A stretch of 39,700 nucleotides of DNA from Candidatus Ruminococcus intestinipullorum (GTDB lineage: Bacteria; Bacillota; Clostridia; Lachnospirales; Lachnospiraceae), in NCBI GenBank assembly GCA_018883985.1, contig JAHLFA010000084.1:1-39700 (forward strand), given 5' to 3'. The notes beneath the pieces are model-generated. The model ran no database searches and had not been told where the DNA came from. It saw only the letters and a list, made by a program, of their open reading frames with translations. Every line of letters begins with the position of its first letter. Positions within the stretch are counted from its first letter, which is position 1. This document shows positions 27,940-39,700 of the stretch, piece by piece. The position numbers and the translations under genes are program-made.

Positions 27940-28815
27940 ATGCATCAATATCTAAAAGCAATTGGATTTAAAAAGGCAAAATCGAAAAAAGATATAATAG
28001 ATTTATTAAAAGAAGTTGAAACAAGTTTCACACATAAGGTGCTTGTTTCTCATAATGAAGAAACAAAGTATTGTGAGTTTCAAAAGTTATTTGGAGATAA
28101 TATTGGGATTACAATATGTGGGGAAATGGATGAGGAAGAAACATTTGAAATGGAGTACTATTTTCCTTATTTTCAAGGCTCTCATGCAACTATGTGTGCA
28201 GAAATTATTATTGAGCGTAGAATAGATAAAGAACAATATGTGGGAATTTATGAAGATTCTGCAGTTGGAATTAGTCTTATTTTTACAATTGGAAATGGTA
28301 TAGAAATTATAGAGGAATGTCAGTTGGGTGTTACCTCTAAAGTTCCAGTGAATGTAACTTTTTCTGGATTGGCAATATCAGGGAAAATACTTCTTCCAGT
28401 GAAAAAAAGTAGTGAACAAAAGTGGATGGAGCAAAGAGAGTCCGATAATCGCAAATATCTTATAAACTTAGCTAGAAATGGGGATTCACAGGCAATGGAA
28501 ACGTTGACTTTGGAAGATATGGAAATGTATTCTAAGGTATCAAAAAGGTTAATTACAGAAGATGTTTTCTCTATTGTGGATAGTTATTTTATGCCTCATG
28601 GTGTAGAGTGTGATGTGTATTCTATTTTGGGAGAAATTTTGGAAGTAGATAAAATTCAAAATCATGCAACACAAGAAGAGTTATATCAAATGACTTTAGA
28701 TGTAAATGAGTTGGTTTTTGATATTTGCGTACCAGTAAGTGAGGTTATGGGTGAGCCTAAAGCTGGAAGACGTTTTAAGGGTGATATTTGGCTGCAAGGT
28801 TATATTGATTTCTAA
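27940..28815 (+). CDS. DUF3881-like protein
   Basis: A 291-residue soluble protein matching the DUF3881 type seen mostly in Lachnospiraceae. Visible features are MHQYLKAIGFKKAKSKKDII at the start, an acidic middle (EEETFEMEYYFPYFQG), and the C-terminal GRRFKGDIWLQGYIDF. No catalytic motif, signal peptide or membrane segment is seen. It begins 8 nt after serS, with GGAG upstream, and is probably co-transcribed. Function unknown; the family assignment is by pattern memory only. Confidence 0.7.
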   Translation: MHQYLKAIGFKKAKSKKDIIDLLKEVETSFTHKVLVSHNEETKYCEFQKLFGDNIGITICGEMDEEETFEMEYYFPYFQGSHATMCAEIIIERRIDKEQYVGIYEDSAVGISLIFTIGNGIEIIEECQLGVTSKVPVNVTFSGLAISGKILLPVKKSSEQKWMEQRESDNRKYLINLARNGDSQAMETLTLEDMEMYSKVSKRLITEDVFSIVDSYFMPHGVECDVYSILGEILEVDKIQNHATQEELYQMTLDVNELVFDICVPVSEVMGEPKAGRRFKGDIWLQGYIDF

Positions 28816-28831
28816 AAATAGAAAATGATTC

Positions 28832-28860
28832 TTGTCAATGATATTAAACTATTGTATAAT
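28832..28860 (+). promoter_or_regulatory. promoter of tRNA-Arg locus
   Basis: TTGTCA, 17 bp, TATAAT, ending 36 bp before the tRNA-Arg 5' half at 28897. An 18-bp inverted repeat (28836-28853 with 28875-28892) brackets the -10, so readthrough RNA from the serS operon would fold into a hairpin while RNA starting at this promoter would not. Confidence 0.8.
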
Positions 28861-28896
28861 AAAAAAGCTGAGAAAATAGTTTAATATCGTTGATGG

Positions 28897-28939
28897 GTCC
28901 TGTTAGTTTAATGGATAAAACAAGCGCCTCCTAAGTGTT
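28897..28939 (+). pseudogene. tRNA-Arg(CCU) 5' half, interrupted after the anticodon arm
   Basis: Acceptor strand GTCCTGT, D-arm GTTT/AAAC with its loop, and an anticodon arm with loop CTCCTAA (anticodon CCU) are all canonical. The 3' anticodon strand is only loosely paired (GTGTT), after which no variable loop, T-arm or matching acceptor strand follows. A weak complement (GCAGGGAC) at 28963 cannot restore a T-arm. This is what integration of an element at the anticodon loop leaves behind. The missing 3' half was not found elsewhere in the window. Confidence 0.75.
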
Positions 28940-28956
28940 TGGTAAGCGAACACCTC

Positions 28957-29109
28957 ATGGAAGCAGGGACAGGCAGATTTGAGTACAAATCGGATCTGGT
29001 ACGGAAACGAATTGAACAGAAGTTGAACATGAAAAAGGTGTTCGCTTCACTGTCAAAGAAACAGAAAAAATTGTTGGTTACCAGTCATAAAAAATGGCTG
29101 TTACCATAG
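28957..29109 (+). CDS. possible 50-residue basic protein between the two tRNA-Arg copies
   Basis: An open frame beginning MEAGTGRFEYKSDLVRKRIE and ending KKWLLP. It is rich in Lys and Arg and lacks cysteines, membrane segments or a good ribosome binding site. It may be a small DNA-binding protein of the integrated element, the tail of a lost gene, or chance. I do not recognise it. Confidence 0.25.
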   Translation: MEAGTGRFEYKSDLVRKRIEQKLNMKKVFASLSKKQKKLLVTSHKKWLLP

Positions 29110-29167
29110 AATCGGTTATCTGACCGAGAGGCTGAAAACCCAGTGTTTAAGCCAAAAATCAGAGAAT

Positions 29168-29241
29168 GTCTTCGTAGCTCAGCTGGATAGAGCACTCGCC
29201 TCCTAAGCGAGGGGTCAGAGGTTCAAATCCTCCCGGAGACG
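29168..29241 (+). tRNA. tRNA-Arg(CCU), intact
   Basis: A complete 74-nt cloverleaf: acceptor GTCTTCG/CGGAGAC, D-arm GCTC/GAGC, anticodon stem CTCGC/GCGAG with loop CTCCTAA (anticodon CCU), T-loop TTCAAAT, discriminator G, CCA not encoded. The outermost T-stem pair is A-C. Its sequence is unlike the broken tRNA-Arg upstream except around the anticodon (CGCCTCCTAAG shared), so the two are not a recent duplicate. Confidence 0.95.
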
Positions 29242-29249
29242 GCAAATAT

Positions 29250-29292
29250 AAGCGGGAATTATTAGCTGGAACGGTTGAATAATTACCCGCTT
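29250..29292 (+). terminator. hairpin after tRNA-Arg
   Basis: Arms AAGCGGGAATTATT and AATAATTACCCGCTT pair with a single bulge around a 14-nt loop; ATTTCATTTT follows. It is a likely 3' end of the tRNA transcript. The loop region contains an inverted copy of the AGCTAATA motif. Confidence 0.6.
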
Positions 29293-29424
29293 ATTTCATT
29301 TTCTGGAGAGAAAAAAGGGTCTGTCAGGAATGAAATCTCAGCTAATACACCGACAAAAATCGGCGGCTCCAGCTAATAAATATGCTCTGTGGCTAATACT
29401 TTTTTTCAGAGCGTTTAGCTAATA
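29260..29424. repeat. cluster of AGCTAATA motifs
   Basis: Exact AGCTAATA at 29340-29347, 29371-29378 and 29417-29424, one variant GGCTAATA at 29391-29398, and an exact inverted copy at 29260-29267. Spacings of the direct copies are 31, 20 and 26 bp. The cluster lies in non-coding DNA 200-350 bp upstream of a parB-parA-parB operon, where plasmid centromeres and iterons are commonly found. Confidence 0.6.
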
Positions 29425-29636: not shown

Positions 29637-30482
29637 TTGGAAGAAAAAGAGAAAGTCATTGAAATTGAGATTGAGAGGCTTCGTGATTTTAAGAAGCATC
29701 CATTTCAGGTCAGGGACGATAAAGAGATGTCGCTTCTAAAAGAAAGTATTCAAAATTACGGGATACTCAGTCCACTGATCGTTAGACCTGTCCTGGACGG
29801 TGTGTATGAGATTGTGGCAGGGCATAGAAGAAAATATGCGGCACAGCAGTTGGGATATCGTAAGCTGCCCGTAATCATCCGGGTGATGTCTGATGACGAG
29901 GCGATTATTTCCATGGTAGATTCTAATTTGCAGCGGGAGCGGATCAGCTACAGCGAAAAAGCATTTGCCTATATGATGAAAAATGAGGCAATGAAAAGAA
30001 AAGGCGGTCGAAAGCGTAGCCAAATTGACCACAAATTCAAAGGGAAAAAGACAGTCGAGATTATTGGAGAGGAAGGCGGTGACAGCCCTAAGCAGGTTCA
30101 GCGCTATATCAAGATTACAGAATTGATTCCGGAACTGCTCCAACAGTTGGATGATGAAATGATCGGATTTAATCCTGCTGTAGAGATCGCCTCTCTGAAG
30201 AAGGAAGAGCAAAAACAGCTTCTCGACGCTATGGATTATGCACAGTCTACGCCTTCACTGTCACAGGCGCAGCGGATGAAAAGGTTAAGCAAAGAAGGAA
30301 AGCTCACAAAAGAAAAGATGGAAGATATTATGAGTGAGATTAAGAAGGGAGAAATCTCCAGAGTGATTTTTACAAATGAACAGCTTCACCGATATTTCCC
30401 ATCCAGTTATACACCGGAGAAAATGAAACGGGAAATCCTGGCGATATTAAAACTCTGGGCAGAACAATACTGGGAACAGTAA
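29637..30482 (+). CDS. ParB-like partition protein 1 of the mobile element
   Basis: A 281-residue ParB/Srx-domain protein. The N-terminal box reads IEIERLRDFKKHPFQVRDDK, then GILSPLIVRP, IVAGHRRKYAAQQLG (the G-x-RR nucleotide-binding box), and SMVDSNLQRERISYSEKAFA. A helix-turn-helix follows (GDSPKQVQRYIKITELIPEL). The C-terminus (RYFPSSYTPEKMKREILAIL) is shared with the second ParB here. The start is TTG at 29637, fixed by AAGGAGG 7 nt upstream. It is expected to bind a plasmid or ICE centromere and work with the ParA 16 bp downstream. It is far from the chromosomal ParB in sequence. Confidence 0.88.
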   Translation: MEEKEKVIEIEIERLRDFKKHPFQVRDDKEMSLLKESIQNYGILSPLIVRPVLDGVYEIVAGHRRKYAAQQLGYRKLPVIIRVMSDDEAIISMVDSNLQRERISYSEKAFAYMMKNEAMKRKGGRKRSQIDHKFKGKKTVEIIGEEGGDSPKQVQRYIKITELIPELLQQLDDEMIGFNPAVEIASLKKEEQKQLLDAMDYAQSTPSLSQAQRMKRLSKEGKLTKEKMEDIMSEIKKGEISRVIFTNEQLHRYFPSSYTPEKMKREILAILKLWAEQYWEQ

Positions 30483-30498: not shown

Positions 30499-31284
30499 AT
30501 GTGTAAGGTTATTTCAATAGCAAATCAGAAAGGCGGAGTCGCAAAGACTACTACTGCTGTAAATCTTGGCATTGGATTAGCAAGAAAAGGGAATAAAGTA
30601 TTGCTTGTCGATACAGATCCGCAGGGAAGTCTGACTGCAAGCCTTGGATATGTCGAACCGGATGAAATTCCGGTTACTCTGGCAAACATCCTGACGGCTG
30701 TTATTAATGAGGAAGAAATTGATATGGCAGCTGGGATTCTTCATCATGAGGAAAATATAGATATCATGCCCGGCAATATTGAACTTTCTGCGTTGGAAGT
30801 GACAATGGGAAATGTTATGAGCAGGGAATTAATACTGAAGGATTATATCGATATGATGAGAGAACGATACGATTATATTTTGATCGATTGTATGCCAAGT
30901 CTTGGAATGATGACAATTAATGCTCTGGTGGCATCAGATTCAGTGCTTATCCCGGTTCAGGCTGCTTACCTTCCTGTAAAAGGACTTCAGCAGTTAATTA
31001 AAACAATCATGATGGTAAAGAAGAGGTTAAATCGTAAATTGAAAATCCAGGGAATTCTTCTTACTATGGTCGATTACAGAACAAATTATGCGAAAGATAT
31101 TTCTTCTAAAGTACATGAAACATACGGATCAAGGATTGTTGTCTTTCAAAATACGATTCCTATGTCTGTAAAGGCTGCCGAAACAAGCGCAGAAGGAATA
31201 AGTATTTATGCACACTGTCCCAGGAGTAAAGTTGCAGAGGCATACAGAAATCTGACAGAGGAGGTTTTGGAAAATGAAAAATAG
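30499..31284 (+). CDS. ParA-type partition ATPase of the mobile element
   Basis: A 261-residue deviant-Walker ATPase: MCKVISIANQKGGVAKTTTA (Walker A KGGVAKTT), LLVDTDPQGSLTAS, and YDYILIDCMPSLGMMT (Walker B). Unlike the chromosomal copy, Ala replaces Gly in the P-loop. There is no N-terminal DNA-binding domain, so it is not expected to self-repress. The GAGGAGG site gives a firm start. It lies between two ParB-like genes and overlaps the second by 11 nt, so all three are translated together. Its likely job is stable inheritance of the circular form of the element. Confidence 0.92.
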   Translation: MCKVISIANQKGGVAKTTTAVNLGIGLARKGNKVLLVDTDPQGSLTASLGYVEPDEIPVTLANILTAVINEEEIDMAAGILHHEENIDIMPGNIELSALEVTMGNVMSRELILKDYIDMMRERYDYILIDCMPSLGMMTINALVASDSVLIPVQAAYLPVKGLQQLIKTIMMVKKRLNRKLKIQGILLTMVDYRTNYAKDISSKVHETYGSRIVVFQNTIPMSVKAAETSAEGISIYAHCPRSKVAEAYRNLTEEVLENEK

Positions 31285-32185
31285 AAGCGGGGAAAAAGTT
31301 AAACTGACAAGTATTGACGAAATGCTTGGAGTTCTGAATGAAGAGTCGGCTATGGAGATAGAAATCAGCAGGATCCATAGTTTCAAGAATCATCCTTTTA
31401 AAGTTCTTGATGATGGAAAAATGCAGGATCTGGTAGACAGTGTAAAGGAAAATGGAGTGCTTACTCCTGTATTGATCCGTCCAACAGCGAATGATCAATA
31501 TGAAATGATATCCGGTCATCGTAGAATGCATGCAGCTGTTATCGCAGGTCTTACTACAATTCCGGCAATCATCAGAGAACTGTCAGATGATGAAGCGGTA
31601 ATCGCAATGGTAGATGCCAATATTCAGAGGGAAGAACTGCTTCCGAGTGAAAAGGCATATGCGTTTAAAATGAAATTGGATGCCATGAAACACCAGGGAG
31701 GAAGGACAGATATTACTTCTGGTCAAAATGGCCAGAAGTTGAAAGGAACTGTTTCAAGAGATATTTTAGCTGAACAGGTTGGAGAAAGTTCAAAGCAGAT
31801 ACAGCGTTATATTCGTCTCACGGAACTTATACCGGAACTGCTTGAACTCGTTGATAAAAAGAAACTGCAATTTACTGTAGCTGTTGATATTTCATATCTC
31901 GACAGGGAAATCCAGAAATGGATTTATGAATATATCCGGGACAATGGTTTCATCAAGCCTTGCCAGATTTCAGCTTTGCGGAAACATCTTGAAACGGAAA
32001 CAATCAGTCAGAATTTTATGATCTCGATATTTAATAATTGTATTGCTCCTAAAACCCAAAATAGAAAGGTGACAATTTCAGAGAAAAAGCTCACGAAATA
32101 TTTTCCGCTGGAATATTCAGAAGAGCAAATGGAACGGATAATCGTCAGTTTATTGGAAAAATGGAAGACGGAACAGGAGGGATGA
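31274..32185 (+). CDS. ParB-like partition protein 2 of the mobile element
   Basis: A 303-residue ParB/Srx-domain protein paralogous to the one before parA. Shared blocks are MEIEISRIHSFKNHPFKVLD, GVLTPVLIRP, MISGHRRMHAAVIAG, MVDANIQREELLPSEKAYAF, and SSKQIQRYIRLTELIPELLE, and both end in a YFP..Y..EQM-type tail. It starts inside the parA 3' end with AGGAGG upstream and is followed 4 nt later by the first repA-like gene. The two ParB copies differ in the middle and C-terminal thirds, so they could recognise different sites or form mixed complexes. Confidence 0.88.
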   Translation: MKNRSGEKVKLTSIDEMLGVLNEESAMEIEISRIHSFKNHPFKVLDDGKMQDLVDSVKENGVLTPVLIRPTANDQYEMISGHRRMHAAVIAGLTTIPAIIRELSDDEAVIAMVDANIQREELLPSEKAYAFKMKLDAMKHQGGRTDITSGQNGQKLKGTVSRDILAEQVGESSKQIQRYIRLTELIPELLELVDKKKLQFTVAVDISYLDREIQKWIYEYIRDNGFIKPCQISALRKHLETETISQNFMISIFNNCIAPKTQNRKVTISEKKLTKYFPLEYSEEQMERIIVSLLEKWKTEQEG

Positions 32186-32189
32186 AAAC

Positions 32190-32540
32190 ATGGCGTTTCG
32201 GTATTTTTATGGAAAAGAGGCGGATCAATACTCTTTTATCCGCATTCCCAAACTGTTATTAACAGGCAAGGATTTCTCATCTCTGTCAATTATGGCTAAG
32301 ATGCTATACGGTCTTCTGTTGGATCGAATGGGAATGGCATCAAAGAATAAATGGCTTGACAGAGAGAACAGAGTATATGTGATCTATCCTATTGCAGAAA
32401 TCCAGCAGGATATGTGTATTTCAAGAAAAAAGGCGATGGAGATCCTTTCTGAATTAGAGGAAAAGGGACTTGTTGAGAAACAGATCCGGGGATCCGGATT
32501 GCCAAACCTTTTATATATTAAACAATTTACAGCGGCCTGA
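32190..32540 (+). CDS. short RepA_N-domain protein
   Basis: A 116-residue protein equal to only the N-terminal winged-helix domain of RepA_N replication initiators: FRYFYGKEADQYSFIRIPKL, LSIMAKMLYGLLLDRMG, then ISRKKAMEILSELEEKGLVE and LLYIKQF. It ends where the longer neighbour continues for over 200 residues. It could be a truncated duplicate or a real single-domain regulator of replication. AGGAGGGATG lies upstream. It sits 4 nt after parB2 and 51 nt before the full-length paralogue. Confidence 0.8.
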   Translation: MAFRYFYGKEADQYSFIRIPKLLLTGKDFSSLSIMAKMLYGLLLDRMGMASKNKWLDRENRVYVIYPIAEIQQDMCISRKKAMEILSELEEKGLVEKQIRGSGLPNLLYIKQFTAA

Positions 32541-32591
32541 TCAGAGGTGCCGGAAATAGCACCTCTGAAATCCAGAAGAAAGGAGGAACAT

Positions 32592-33596
32592 ATGGAACAA
32601 AAAGTATCATTTAATTATTTTTATGGATCCCAGGCGGATCAGTATAGTTTTTATCGGATTCCAAAAGCGTTATTTAAGAATGATTACTTCCGCGGACTGT
32701 CCAGTGATGCGAAGATATTGTATGGGCTGATGTTGGACAGGATGTCTTTATCTATCAAGAACCAGTGGTTTGATCATGAAAACAGGGCTTACATATACTT
32801 TTCTATTGAAGATATTATGGAATTGCTGAATTGTGGCAGAAATAAAGCTGTAAAATCGCTGCAGGAGCTGGACAGTGAAAACGGGATTGGTCTGATCGAG
32901 AAGAAACGCCAGGGATTTGGCAAGACCAATATTATCTATGTAAAATCATTTATGATGGCAGACGAGGAAAAAACTGTGGAAGATATTCCATCAGATCAGG
33001 AGACAGAGCCACAGAAGTTTACAATTCAAACTTATGAGGGGGAAGAGTCAGATCAAGAAGTTTACAAAACAAACTTCAAGAAGTCCCAAAAACAAACTTC
33101 AAGAAGTCCTGAAAATAAACTTCAAGAAGTTTGCAAAACAAACTCTATTTATAATAATTTAAGTTATAATAAAGAGAATGATACTGAATCAGATCTAATC
33201 GGATCGTTTCAGATGCGATCCATAGAAGGGATGACAACTATGCAGGCGTACGGAAGCCTGATCAAAGAGAATATTGACTATGATAATCTTCTGATCAGCC
33301 ATCCTTTTGAGCAGGAGCTGATCCAGGGAATCTATGAGCTGATACTGGAGACAGTATTGTGTCAGAATGAAGAAATACTGATTGCCAGTAACCGGTATCC
33401 GGTTCAGCTTGTGAAAAGCAAATTTCTGAAACTCAAATATTCACACATCGAGTATGTGATCGAATGTCTGAAAAAGAATACTTCAAAAGTCAAGAATATC
33501 AAGAAGTATATGCTGGCTGCATTATTTAATGCGCCTACTACAATTGATGGTTATTATCAGGCTGAGGTAAATCACGATATGCCCCAGTTTGCCTGA
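32592..33596 (+). CDS. RepA_N-type replication initiator with DUF6017-like C-terminus
   Basis: A 334-residue protein of the kind found in clostridial ICEs and plasmids. The N-terminal RepA_N domain (about 1-120) has FNYFYGSQADQYSFYRIPKA, DAKILYGLMLDRMSLSIKNQ, CGRNKAVKSLQELD and NIIYVKSF. A low-complexity linker (about 125-205) is encoded by four 23-bp DNA repeats and AT-rich DNA. The C-terminal domain (about 210-325; MTTMQAYGSLIKENIDYDNL, YVIECLKKNTSKVKNIKKYM) resembles DUF6017. I start at the ATG at 32592 with AGGAGG just upstream. The expected role is binding its own origin, which the repeats suggest lies inside this gene. Confidence 0.85.
   Translation: MEQKVSFNYFYGSQADQYSFYRIPKALFKNDYFRGLSSDAKILYGLMLDRMSLSIKNQWFDHENRAYIYFSIEDIMELLNCGRNKAVKSLQELDSENGIGLIEKKRQGFGKTNIIYVKSFMMADEEKTVEDIPSDQETEPQKFTIQTYEGEESDQEVYKTNFKKSQKQTSRSPENKLQEVCKTNSIYNNLSYNKENDTESDLIGSFQMRSIEGMTTMQAYGSLIKENIDYDNLLISHPFEQELIQGIYELILETVLCQNEEILIASNRYPVQLVKSKFLKLKYSHIEYVIECLKKNTSKVKNIKKYMLAALFNAPTTIDGYYQAEVNHDMPQFA
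33053..33144 (+). repeat. four tandem 23-bp repeats (iterons) inside the rep gene
   Basis: Four head-to-tail units begin at 33053, 33076, 33099 and 33122. Each starts TCAAGAAGT and ends AAACT, so each junction makes the palindrome ACTTC-AA-GAAGT. A degenerate unit lies at 33010-33032. Because 23 is not a multiple of 3, successive units are read in different frames, so the repeat is conserved at DNA rather than protein level. An AT-only stretch follows at 33145-33170. This is the expected look of a replication origin. Confidence 0.85.
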
Positions 33597-34913: not shown

Positions 34914-35777
34914 TCAGAATTTGTTTCTCAGTTTTCGGTATTCTCTCGGTGAATATCCTTTCAGCTTGTGAAAAAGCCGACTGAAATACAGCTGGTTATC
35001 ATATCCGACGATTTTAGAGATTTCATTGATGGAATAGGTTGTTGTTTCAAGTAACATCTGAGCATTGTTGATCCGGATTCCTACGATGAATTGCATTGGT
35101 GTGGAACCGGTGTATTTTTTGAAATTCCGGATAAACCAACTGACACTCATGCCTCGTGAGGCTGCGTAATTCTCTATGTTGATGTCCTGATTATAATTTT
35201 CGCTGAAATAGGTAACTGCAGTGTTCATTTCCTGATCCAGGTATTCGTTTTTCAGGATATGTTCTCGTGTCAGTTCTCGGTGGAAAGTGATTAGTAGATG
35301 ACGAAGCAGAAGAACAAGCATTTCCTCATAATCATCCTGACAGCGTTGGAGTTCGATGATAATACGCTTAAAAACCCGTTCATATTCCATAGATGTGCCG
35401 ACTTGGAAAACCCGTTCTTTATCCGGAAATCCATACTGACGCAAGATATTTTTAACATTGCTGCCTGTAAAATGAATCCAGTATACTTCTGTCTTATCTT
35501 CCCCATAATATTCATATTTCTGAAGTTCCTTCGGTCTGTACAGCACAATATTACCGGCGGGAACAATCGTTTCGTTACCTACATTGCCAAAATGAAAATG
35601 CCCACAACCAGCGGTGATATAGATGATCTGATAATCCAGGCGTCCCCTTGGACGGTAGGTTGGTAATTTTGGATGGCTGGAAAGGCGATAAGTACCACAG
35701 CTTCCTACAATCAGTGGGCGACTTTTGTCTTTGAAATCCATATGGGAGTGGTTCAGATAACCAGTATTCATATACAT
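34914..35777 (-). CDS. AraC-family regulator of the lacZ locus
   Basis: A 287-residue activator-type regulator. The N-terminal half is a cupin sugar-sensing domain (residues about 30-110, with YITAGCGHFHFGNVGNETIV and VYWIHFTGSNV), and the C-terminal 100 residues form the AraC double helix-turn-helix (INIENYAASRGMSVSWFIRN, YTGSTPMQFIVGIRIN, ISKIVGYDNQLYFSRLFHKL, GYSPREYRKLR). It is divergent from a beta-galactosidase 202 bp away and followed across it by a sugar symporter, so it probably activates that pair in response to a galactoside or related sugar. The inducer is inferred, not shown. Confidence 0.9.
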   Translation of the reverse strand: MYMNTGYLNHSHMDFKDKSRPLIVGSCGTYRLSSHPKLPTYRPRGRLDYQIIYITAGCGHFHFGNVGNETIVPAGNIVLYRPKELQKYEYYGEDKTEVYWIHFTGSNVKNILRQYGFPDKERVFQVGTSMEYERVFKRIIIELQRCQDDYEEMLVLLLRHLLITFHRELTREHILKNEYLDQEMNTAVTYFSENYNQDINIENYAASRGMSVSWFIRNFKKYTGSTPMQFIVGIRINNAQMLLETTTYSINEISKIVGYDNQLYFSRLFHKLKGYSPREYRKLRNKF

Positions 35778-39018
<3,241 letters not shown>

Positions 39019-39188: not shown

Positions 39189-39700
39189 ATGGAAGAAAAA
39201 AAGTATTTAAAATGGTATAACAAAATTGGATATGGTTCAGGTGATATCGCAGGTAATGTAGTCTATGCGTTCCTGACATCTTTTATGATGGTCTATCTGA
39301 CAGACTCAGTAGGACTTGCTGCTGGTGTCGTAGGTACCCTGATTGCCGTATCAAAATTCTTTGATGGTTTTACAGATATATTCTTTGGATCAATGATCGA
39401 CAAAACACACAGCAAAATGGGAAAAGCAAAGCCTTGGATGTTATATGGCTATATTGGATGTGCCATTACATTAGTCTGCTGTTTTGCAGTACCAGTCAGC
39501 TGGGGAACAACCGCTAAATATGCATGGTTCTTTATTTCTTATACACTGTTAAATGGTGTGTTTTATACAGCTAATAATATTGCATATTCAGCACTTACAT
39601 CACTCATCACAAAGAACAGCAAAGAACGTGTGCAGATAGGATCTTACCGTTTCATTTTTGCATTTTTAACAAGCCTTCTGATTCAGGCAATTACAGTTGG
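39189..39700 (+). CDS. GPH/MFS sugar symporter, 5' part, runs off the window
   Basis: The first 170 residues of a membrane transporter that continues past the right edge. It starts MEEKKYLKWYNKIGYGSGDI, then shows hydrophobic helices (VVYAFLTSFMMVYLTDSV, GVVGTLIAVSKFFDGFTDIF) and the cytoplasmic-loop motif GSMIDKTHSKMGKAKPWMLY, typical of glycoside-pentoside-hexuronide:cation symporters such as MelB and LacS. GAGGAG lies upstream of the ATG. Position after lacZ suggests it imports the beta-galactosidase substrate. The stop codon is outside the window, so total length and any C-terminal IIA domain cannot be judged. Confidence 0.9.
   Translation, partial: MEEKKYLKWYNKIGYGSGDIAGNVVYAFLTSFMMVYLTDSVGLAAGVVGTLIAVSKFFDGFTDIFFGSMIDKTHSKMGKAKPWMLYGYIGCAITLVCCFAVPVSWGTTAKYAWFFISYTLLNGVFYTANNIAYSALTSLITKNSKERVQIGSYRFIFAFLTSLLIQAITV

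Follow-up and report, generated by a model that had tools for sequence, protein, structure and literature searches.

Why should a tRNA-Arg(CCU) gene that breaks off after its anticodon loop be followed at short distance by a complete tRNA gene with the same anticodon and a different body? The question is raised by a stretch of 39,700 nucleotides from Candidatus Ruminococcus intestinipullorum, called here the window, which represents positions 1-39700 of a 106-kb contig (C75) and shares its coordinates. The source genome (G000) is a MAG of 2.14 Mb assembled, 83.5% complete. The original prediction was that one element had integrated into the anticodon loop of the resident gene, thereby destroying it, and had brought a tRNA of its own. 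Comparing this locus with its counterparts in other genomes, we arrived at an explanation that we hold, as a whole, with high confidence: an integrative mobilizable element (IME) splits the host tRNA-Arg(CCU) at the anticodon loop and supplies its own, and nested arrays grow from such insertions.

The site begins with a DUF3881 gene (27940..28815, + strand), which is conserved to the left of the tRNA-Arg(CCU) landing site and served as our anchor for locus comparison. It is followed by a promoter-like TTGTCA-17-TATAAT of the resident tRNA (28832..28860, +; 11 of 12 consensus positions) and by the 5' half of that tRNA, anticodon loop included (28897..28934, +). The loop, CTCCTAA, occupies 28928-28934 and the sequence beyond it fails to complete a tRNA: ARAGORN makes no call, and the Rfam score of 18.6 bits is under the 29-bit gathering score. 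The left boundary of the inserted DNA (attL) is the recombination core CTCCTAAG at 28928..28935 (+). Behind a leader of 231 bp (type X; 28936..29166, +) comes a complete element-borne tRNA-Arg(CCU), also of type X (29167..29243, +), recognised by ARAGORN and by Rfam (59.7 bits for 29168-29241), with 12/12 acceptor and anticodon-stem pairs. The core CTCCTAAG recurs within it at 29200..29207 (+) as the next landing site; in a relative (G002) another cassette lies there. The bodies do differ, as the acceptor strands GTCCTGT (broken tRNA) and GTCTTCG (intact tRNA) show, and the prediction was right about both genes, the first canonical as far as its loop and lacking its 3' half, the second complete with the same anticodon. 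The string CGCCTCCTAAG said to be common to both is present, and the common core around the anticodon can be refined to CTCCTAA(G), that is, to the anticodon loop itself. Two minor features of the region were seen as well: an inverted repeat, TGATATTAAACTAT / ATAGTTTAATATC, noticed by eye at 28837-28895 of the window, which overlaps the resident promoter and had only microRNA matches in Rfam, all sub-threshold, and a tRNA-Ser(GCU) on the minus strand at 377-464, close to the left window edge.

The missing 3' half, which was to be looked for at the far end of the element, lies at contig position 63072, behind the same core CTCCTAA. With its acceptor strand ACGGGAC and anticodon stem GCGCT, it pairs with the 5' half at 28897 at 7/7 acceptor and 5/5 anticodon-stem positions; the other three 3' halves on the contig reach just 7 or 8 of 12. 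Joined at the core, the two flanks give a canonical 72-nt tRNA-Arg(CCU), so split by 34,144 bp (28928 to 63072). Neither junction rebuilds a functional tRNA: the resident 5' half pairs at 4+3 of 12 positions with the next 3' half, and at 63072 the 3' half stands alone. The idea that the intact tRNA is the ancestral gene was rejected because the far 3' half of the broken tRNA is present. Group I introns occur in bacterial tRNAs, and the two cores flank a unit of intron-like size (272 bp), across which the 5' half might be joined in RNA to the downstream 3' half by an intron or by trans-splicing. Such a hybrid, however, would have just the 4+3 pairs mentioned above, its true partner half is 34 kb away, and between 28700 and 29700 group I introns and all other RNA families, the intact tRNA excepted, stay below the Rfam gathering score; we therefore give splicing virtually no chance.

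What separates the two halves is a series of elements. The stretch from 29637 to 63072 holds 34 ORFs that are 90 aa or longer; 28 were scanned with Pfam, one of these over part of its length. The inner element starts with a ParB-like protein (29637..30482, +; PF02195, E 3.5e-19), a ParA-like ATPase (30499..31284, +; PF13614, E 5e-58), a second ParB-like protein (31274..32185, +; PF02195, E 6.9e-23) and two RepA_N-type replication initiator ORFs, the second with DUF6017 (32190..33596, +; Pfam). AraC regulators follow, of which one (34914..35777, - strand; Pfam) adjoins the cargo, a LacZ-type beta-galactosidase (35929..39018, +) and a sugar transporter (MFS_2; 39189..39698, +, continuing beyond the window to 40586). 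Farther on are a haloacid-dehalogenase-like ORF and a Thy1-like ORF, a MobA/VirD2-type relaxase (44436-46151; PF03432), the partly scanned ORF, with a weak helix-turn-helix match, a full-length tyrosine integrase gene (48107-49573; PF00589) and, at 51593, the right end with its core. The integrase has weak matches only in the PDB, solved integrases among them (6emy, E 0.0018), and is found at 99% identity in two relatives (G002 and G076), about 2 kb from the same type of right end. The scanned ORFs contain no phage capsid, portal, terminase or tail family, and have a relaxase and ParA/ParB instead; VirB4 and VirD4 families are absent from them too. Judged by these predicted genes, an integrase and a relaxase with no conjugation apparatus in the scanned ORFs, the inner element qualifies as an IME.

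Behind it lie two remnants. Remnant 2 (7.2 kb, 51593 to the core at 58822) begins with a displaced X-type tRNA 3' half and carries polyamine genes (a decarboxylase, a spermidine synthase, members of the arginase and saccharopine dehydrogenase families and a further decarboxylase), with no integrase domain in its scanned ORFs. Remnant 3 (4.2 kb, 58822 to the core at 63072) begins with a Z-type 3' half and retains just a short integrase fragment (57.9% over 38 aa), after which the resident 3' half follows. Searching the genome against itself, we found the 3' part of the intact tRNA (29199-29241) as an exact 43-bp copy at 51592-51634 and as an 81% copy at 58822, and a pattern of CCU loop plus T arm matched at 29201, 51594, 58823 and 63073 of the contig and once on another contig, in a sequence that is not tRNA-like. 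A count of CCU tRNAs, one of the checks proposed at the outset, gave one complete copy as far as this MAG is assembled. Three right ends face one left cassette, so that loss of cassettes must be assumed; the order on the contig is what would be expected if elements had inserted serially, each into its predecessor's tRNA, with later decay and loss of two left cassettes. Integration into the anticodon loop with destruction of the resident tRNA, as originally predicted, is thus supported; the single element of that prediction has given way to three stacked insertions, two of them decayed.

The exact 43-bp repeat also has a conventional reading, as it is the signature by which Islander recognises islands (PMC4383910): the resident gene would have been restored at attL by a 43-bp 3' fragment carried in attP and would now stand at 29167-29243, the broken 5' half being an old fragment of unrelated origin. 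Taken alone, the inner X insertion is ambiguous and could be read in this way. The broken half, however, has its own matching 3' half at 63072, and the resident tRNA is not restored. Moreover, insertion of X into X explains the repeat, and tandem X cassettes exist in G002. The relatives argue in the same direction: in G031 the X leader, its tRNA and the element interior are contiguous behind a different tRNA 5' half, and in G007 (L012, G007:C188) leader and interior, with another tRNA body, are contiguous behind a different 5' half. Canonical integration thus strikes us as very improbable, and the insertion of elements that bring a foreign tRNA remains our preferred reading.

Leader X occurs in three of the 60 other genomes examined, 97-100% identical in two and 84% in one (G007), and each copy follows a tRNA 5' half unlike that of G000. 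G002 has the X cassette twice in tandem together with a third, different cassette, and there an X tRNA 5' half is itself interrupted at its core by another cassette; in G031 another cassette precedes X. At the left junction of G007 only CTCCTAA is common, and its leader beside a different tRNA body makes it seem that bodies have been swapped between elements. Rightward of the G007 locus, about 70 kb of sequence yielded no additional core, and the displaced 3' halves expected for X and X (G002), Q (G031) and the resident tRNA of G016 did not turn up in the respective assemblies.

For a wider view of the genus, DUF3881 served to locate the site, with a match in 35 of 58 genomes; full-length matches in the genus group were 54-62% identical. 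In the public genome set the one named relative of this gene, 60% identical, comes from a Candidatus Mediterraneibacter MAG, and Mediterraneibacter (Lachnospiraceae) is the probable genus. Downstream of it 33 distinct loci were read, leaving out DUF3881 copies in G064 and G008 and a second copy in G061. Ten of them have no recognisable tRNA 5' half in the sequence available, including one with a tRNA in the opposite direction (G018, L020) and one where an array is present and was missed by the search expression (G078, L042). The other 23 divide into nine with a single uninterrupted tRNA downstream of DUF3881, as anticipated for relatives lacking the element, and 14 arrays, 12 readable and two cut off by the sequence end. 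The uninterrupted tRNAs do not have the same body as the broken tRNA of G000. Each readable array consists of one to three broken 5' halves and then one intact tRNA, which pairs 12/12 in all 12; for the outer 5' halves a cognate 3' half follows in none of 19 cases (best 8/12).

The same organisation extends to the family. Using a pattern of two cores, the second behind a D arm and 74-104 bases from the first, we obtained matches in 33 of 397 Lachnospiraceae genomes and 31 of 334 genera, a lower bound since the pattern misses longer leaders such as X and G000 itself is unmatched; the reversed control gave 0 in every case. All 15 DUF3881-anchored family arrays chosen by this pattern and readable to their end have an innermost tRNA that pairs 12/12, and three more are cut off. 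Adding the 12 genus arrays to these 15 pattern-chosen ones makes 27 that can be followed as far as the innermost site, and in all 27 the innermost tRNA is the only intact one, as would be expected under selection for function. Two of the array contigs (G116, 2.77 Mb, and G403, 3.66 Mb) approach whole genomes, and on these the loop-plus-T-arm pattern has no hits besides the element-borne tRNA and the resident 3' half that was displaced; the additional matches of a looser pattern do not look like CCU tRNAs by eye. A single intact tRNA in the array does not always mean a single one in the genome: G063 has an intact Y-type tRNA in its DUF3881 array and a second complete tRNA-Arg(CCU), with the other X-type body, on a 4.7-kb contig (L103, G063:C98, position 590), to which its second 3' half belongs.

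Some uninterrupted genes resemble those of elements. G027 and element Z agree in every base of the 76-nt stretch that holds the uninterrupted tRNA of G027, and the tRNAs of G079, G022 and G080 are identical to the cassette V tRNA of G020 and G016. Exchange in either direction would give such identities; in G027, however, the first 159 bp downstream of the tRNA are a 97% match to the displaced Z remnant of G000, and this adjoining element interior speaks for the present gene having come from an element.

If the elements were nested, the 3' halves should follow on the right in reverse order. In the mapped loci element ends are joined to tRNA halves by the junction core CTCCTAA(G), 7-9 bp, and joining the flanks restored a canonical tRNA in each of four further cases tried (G116, G403, G140 and Monoglobus). 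In eleven loci a displaced 5' half could be scored against a far 3' half from the same contig or record: eight pair 12/12 (G000, G140, G403, G116, G370, G158, G034 and Monoglobus), two pair 11/12 with one mismatch each in the anticodon stem (G086 and G303), and one gives no match (G364); its far 3' half fits the 5' half of the intact tRNA, not the displaced 5' half. For comparison, when 53 distinct 5' strings, a few of them spurious, were combined with 40 distinct 3' halves, 50 of the 2120 combinations reached 12/12 and 147 reached at least 11, true pairs included. In G370, G303 and G158 the far half belongs to the array's second 5' half or core, and for their outer 5' half no separate partner was found on the contig. 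G034 has R, Y and Q on the left; on the right, Q stands beside its own 5' half and Y follows 25.5 kb on (12/12), and the 3' half fitting R is on another contig. In G021, with R, Z and W on the left, 3' halves fitting Z and R each lie behind an element end on other contigs. Cassettes and right ends also tend to come together: Y with the right end GTTGTGGTTT in G116 and, on two contigs, in G185, and Z with AGTGCCT/AGTGCTT in G140, G403 and G370; the right end beside the resident 3' half of G031 is unlike the type paired with cassette Q in G034. Two left cores stand after non-tRNA sequence (G158:C11:11555, L117 and L154; G352:C1:3476848, L137), which might mean that the insertion used a secondary site or the right end of another element.

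Outside the family, a 50.2-kb element of Monoglobus pectinilyticus, of the order Monoglobales (NZ_OY725736.1, 418705-468937; L173, L172), splits a tRNA-Arg(CCU) with yet another body, whose halves pair 12/12. It carries MobC, a relaxase, VirD4-like and VirB4-like proteins and PrgI, and is thus conjugative by gene content; it contains predicted tetracycline-resistance (tet) genes, and its integrase, 48% identical to ours, is the last annotated gene ahead of the right end. The 125-bp left cassette is identical to that of a Lachnospiraceae genome (G088). Arrays of tRNA fragments can also arise through duplication, and tandem duplication of tRNA genes followed by decay would need no mobile element. 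Against this, the bodies are unrelated, the junction is always at the same 7-8 bases, integrase homologues of 38-99% identity occur in many of the loci examined, and one 125-bp cassette is identical across two orders; the 3' halves, kilobases away behind element ends, already refute it, and we can accord duplication almost no credence beside integration by elements.

Relatives of the integrase (48-57%) are present in at least five fecal scaffolds deposited as "Bacteriophage sp." and in two plasmid-collection records. Five of these seven were examined for element boundaries: a left boundary with cassette and intact tRNA was found in two (OY725843.1 and the Monoglobus record), a right end ahead of a tRNA 3' half in three (Monoglobus, MT836781.1 and MT836186.1), and neither in MT837272.1. 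When phage records were searched with the cassette, the matches were tRNA-sized and none covers 80% of the query. OY725843.1, a circular record of 75.8 kb deposited as a Subdoligranulum plasmid, shows at 37297-37443 (L167) a broken 5' half followed by a cassette together with an intact tRNA-Arg(CCU). We rejected the idea that it is an excised element circle, because a tRNA 5' half precedes the cassette and there is no right end, hence no attP; it may be a piece of chromosome.

These observations lead to the following scheme. The tyrosine integrase of the IME would recombine attP with the 7-base anticodon loop CTCCTAA of the host tRNA-Arg(CCU), and because attP and attB share only the loop plus one or two bases, the host tRNA would be split and not rebuilt. 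A leader and a complete tRNA-Arg(CCU) of another body would arrive in the same direction just inside the left end of the element, so placed that the new tRNA would lie directly downstream of the host tRNA promoter and could take over AGG decoding. Since it has the same loop, the next element can insert into it and nested arrays grow: broken 5' halves presumably accumulate to the left, their partners follow to the right in mirror order, and the innermost, newest tRNA alone is whole. G000 would then display three insertions, of which two are decayed and the inner one has a full-length integrase gene, and would have lost two left cassettes. Several parts of this scheme can be read directly from the sequences, namely that the resident tRNA is split in its anticodon loop and has its second half far away, that the core is shared, that arrays exist in which the innermost tRNA is intact, that a whole tRNA lies in the same direction inside the left end, and that tRNAs of element type are split in the same way themselves. 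That the adjacent integrase catalyses the recombination, and that the new tRNA functionally replaces the old one, we infer; the loss of left cassettes in G000 is probable on the counts given above.

As for expression, the resident TTGTCA-17-TATAAT is the sole promoter-like site on the + strand within 28750-29400, and no terminator-like site was found between it and the element-borne tRNA, so that the host promoter may well serve the foreign gene; on both strands 2 promoter-like sites were counted vs 1.3 expected in shuffles, a number not above chance. Inspected by eye, several other leaders seem to contain their own promoters. G000 also carries a tRNA-Arg(UCU), which might read AGG and make the CCU tRNA dispensable.

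A broader reading, whose chances we put at about even, is that the replacement tRNA acts as a self-renewing landing pad and the locus as a last-in-first-out stack, with the succession of invasions preserved in its halves. Under this reading, the tRNA-Arg(CCU) now in use in many Lachnospiraceae would be of mobile-element origin, G027 being an example, and elements could cross orders regardless of tRNA body, since only the 7-base loop must match. The same integrase could also excise segments of leader plus 5' half between two cores as minicircles, and the cassette losses in G000 would thereby be accounted for.

How does this compare with known systems? According to studies of islands and of archaeal tyrosine recombinases (Islander PMC4383910; PMC8371274), the general rule is, as the original prediction had it, that elements targeting tRNAs rebuild the host gene through attP. 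Such classical islands share with ours the tyrosine integrase, the crossover in the anticodon loop, displaced fragments and tandem arrays, but there an attP fragment restores the host tRNA, whereas here a whole foreign tRNA replaces it. The closest principle is the tRNA-dependent lysogeny of actinobacteriophages described by Guerrero-Bustamante and Hatfull in 2024 (PMC10865867), in which the target tRNA is destroyed and a phage-borne tRNA of the same isotype is supplied, with cores of 8-17 bp and with experimental backing for some phages; its discussion mentions one possible case outside Actinobacteria, a Lactobacillus prophage. The likeness includes a tyrosine integrase, a short core, no rebuilt tRNA and a whole element-borne tRNA, which G000 has too. 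Those are, however, temperate phages, while ours are mobilizable or conjugative elements; in phage Fionnbharth the tRNA overlaps an opposite-strand phage gene and has its own promoter, whereas here it lies at attL behind the host promoter; and in the Lachnospiraceae elements the tRNA contains the same core and is thus the next attB, with arrays as the result, while the word "array" has 0 occurrences in the main text of that paper.

Other systems are similar in part. The ssrA islands of Dehalococcoides (PMC3146451) are likewise stacked in number at one tRNA-like gene, but use a serine recombinase, insert in the T loop and are flanked by ssrA and 20-bp 3'-end repeats. Sinorhizobium prophages carry an isoacceptor that replaces the host tRNA; they differ in being phage-related sequences, and nested arrays are not described in the text available of that report (PMC11476347), while a later study presents one Sinorhizobium prophage group without tRNA substitution (PMC12429752). 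The model for the tRNA-Thr of Caldiarchaeum (PMC3293823) also places a 5' fragment upstream of a complete tRNA with the same anticodon, the two being separated by a putative mobile element; it concerns an archaeon and a 1.8-kb recombinase-bearing insert, and was framed around introns and split tRNAs. Our literature search, from which subscription papers were mostly absent, found no mobilizable or conjugative elements that supply a tRNA, nor a supplied tRNA that is the next target. The principle is thus known, and what is apparently new is its use by IMEs and ICEs, the replacement tRNA at attL whose identical core is the next target, and the nested arrays.

The mechanism known from actinobacteriophages is hereby widened to elements of gut Firmicutes that are mobilizable or conjugative, and in these the supplied tRNA doubles as the next target. 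A reason can also be offered why an element should bring along an entire tRNA: with an attachment site reduced to the anticodon loop, hosts with quite different tRNA bodies are open to it, as the cassette common to a Lachnospiraceae genome and Monoglobus suggests. There is also a practical side, in that no intact cognate of the outermost tRNA is left, so that the outer boundary should escape algorithms which match a tRNA to its own fragment; tools built on this matching should misplace the ends of such islands. Whether tRNA-supplying systems evolved from tRNA-rebuilding ones is left open in the actinobacteriophage study (PMC10865867). Our leaders make this a testable question: a decayed tRNA T arm (GTTCRANTC) is present in seven of 53 distinct leader starts (L084, L090, L094, L116, L118, L123 and L144), as if these derived from a tRNA-rebuilding attP, an eighth match (L107) being a displaced 3' half. 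Finally, a palindrome-like GTTnnAAC was noticed by eye just inside many leaders.
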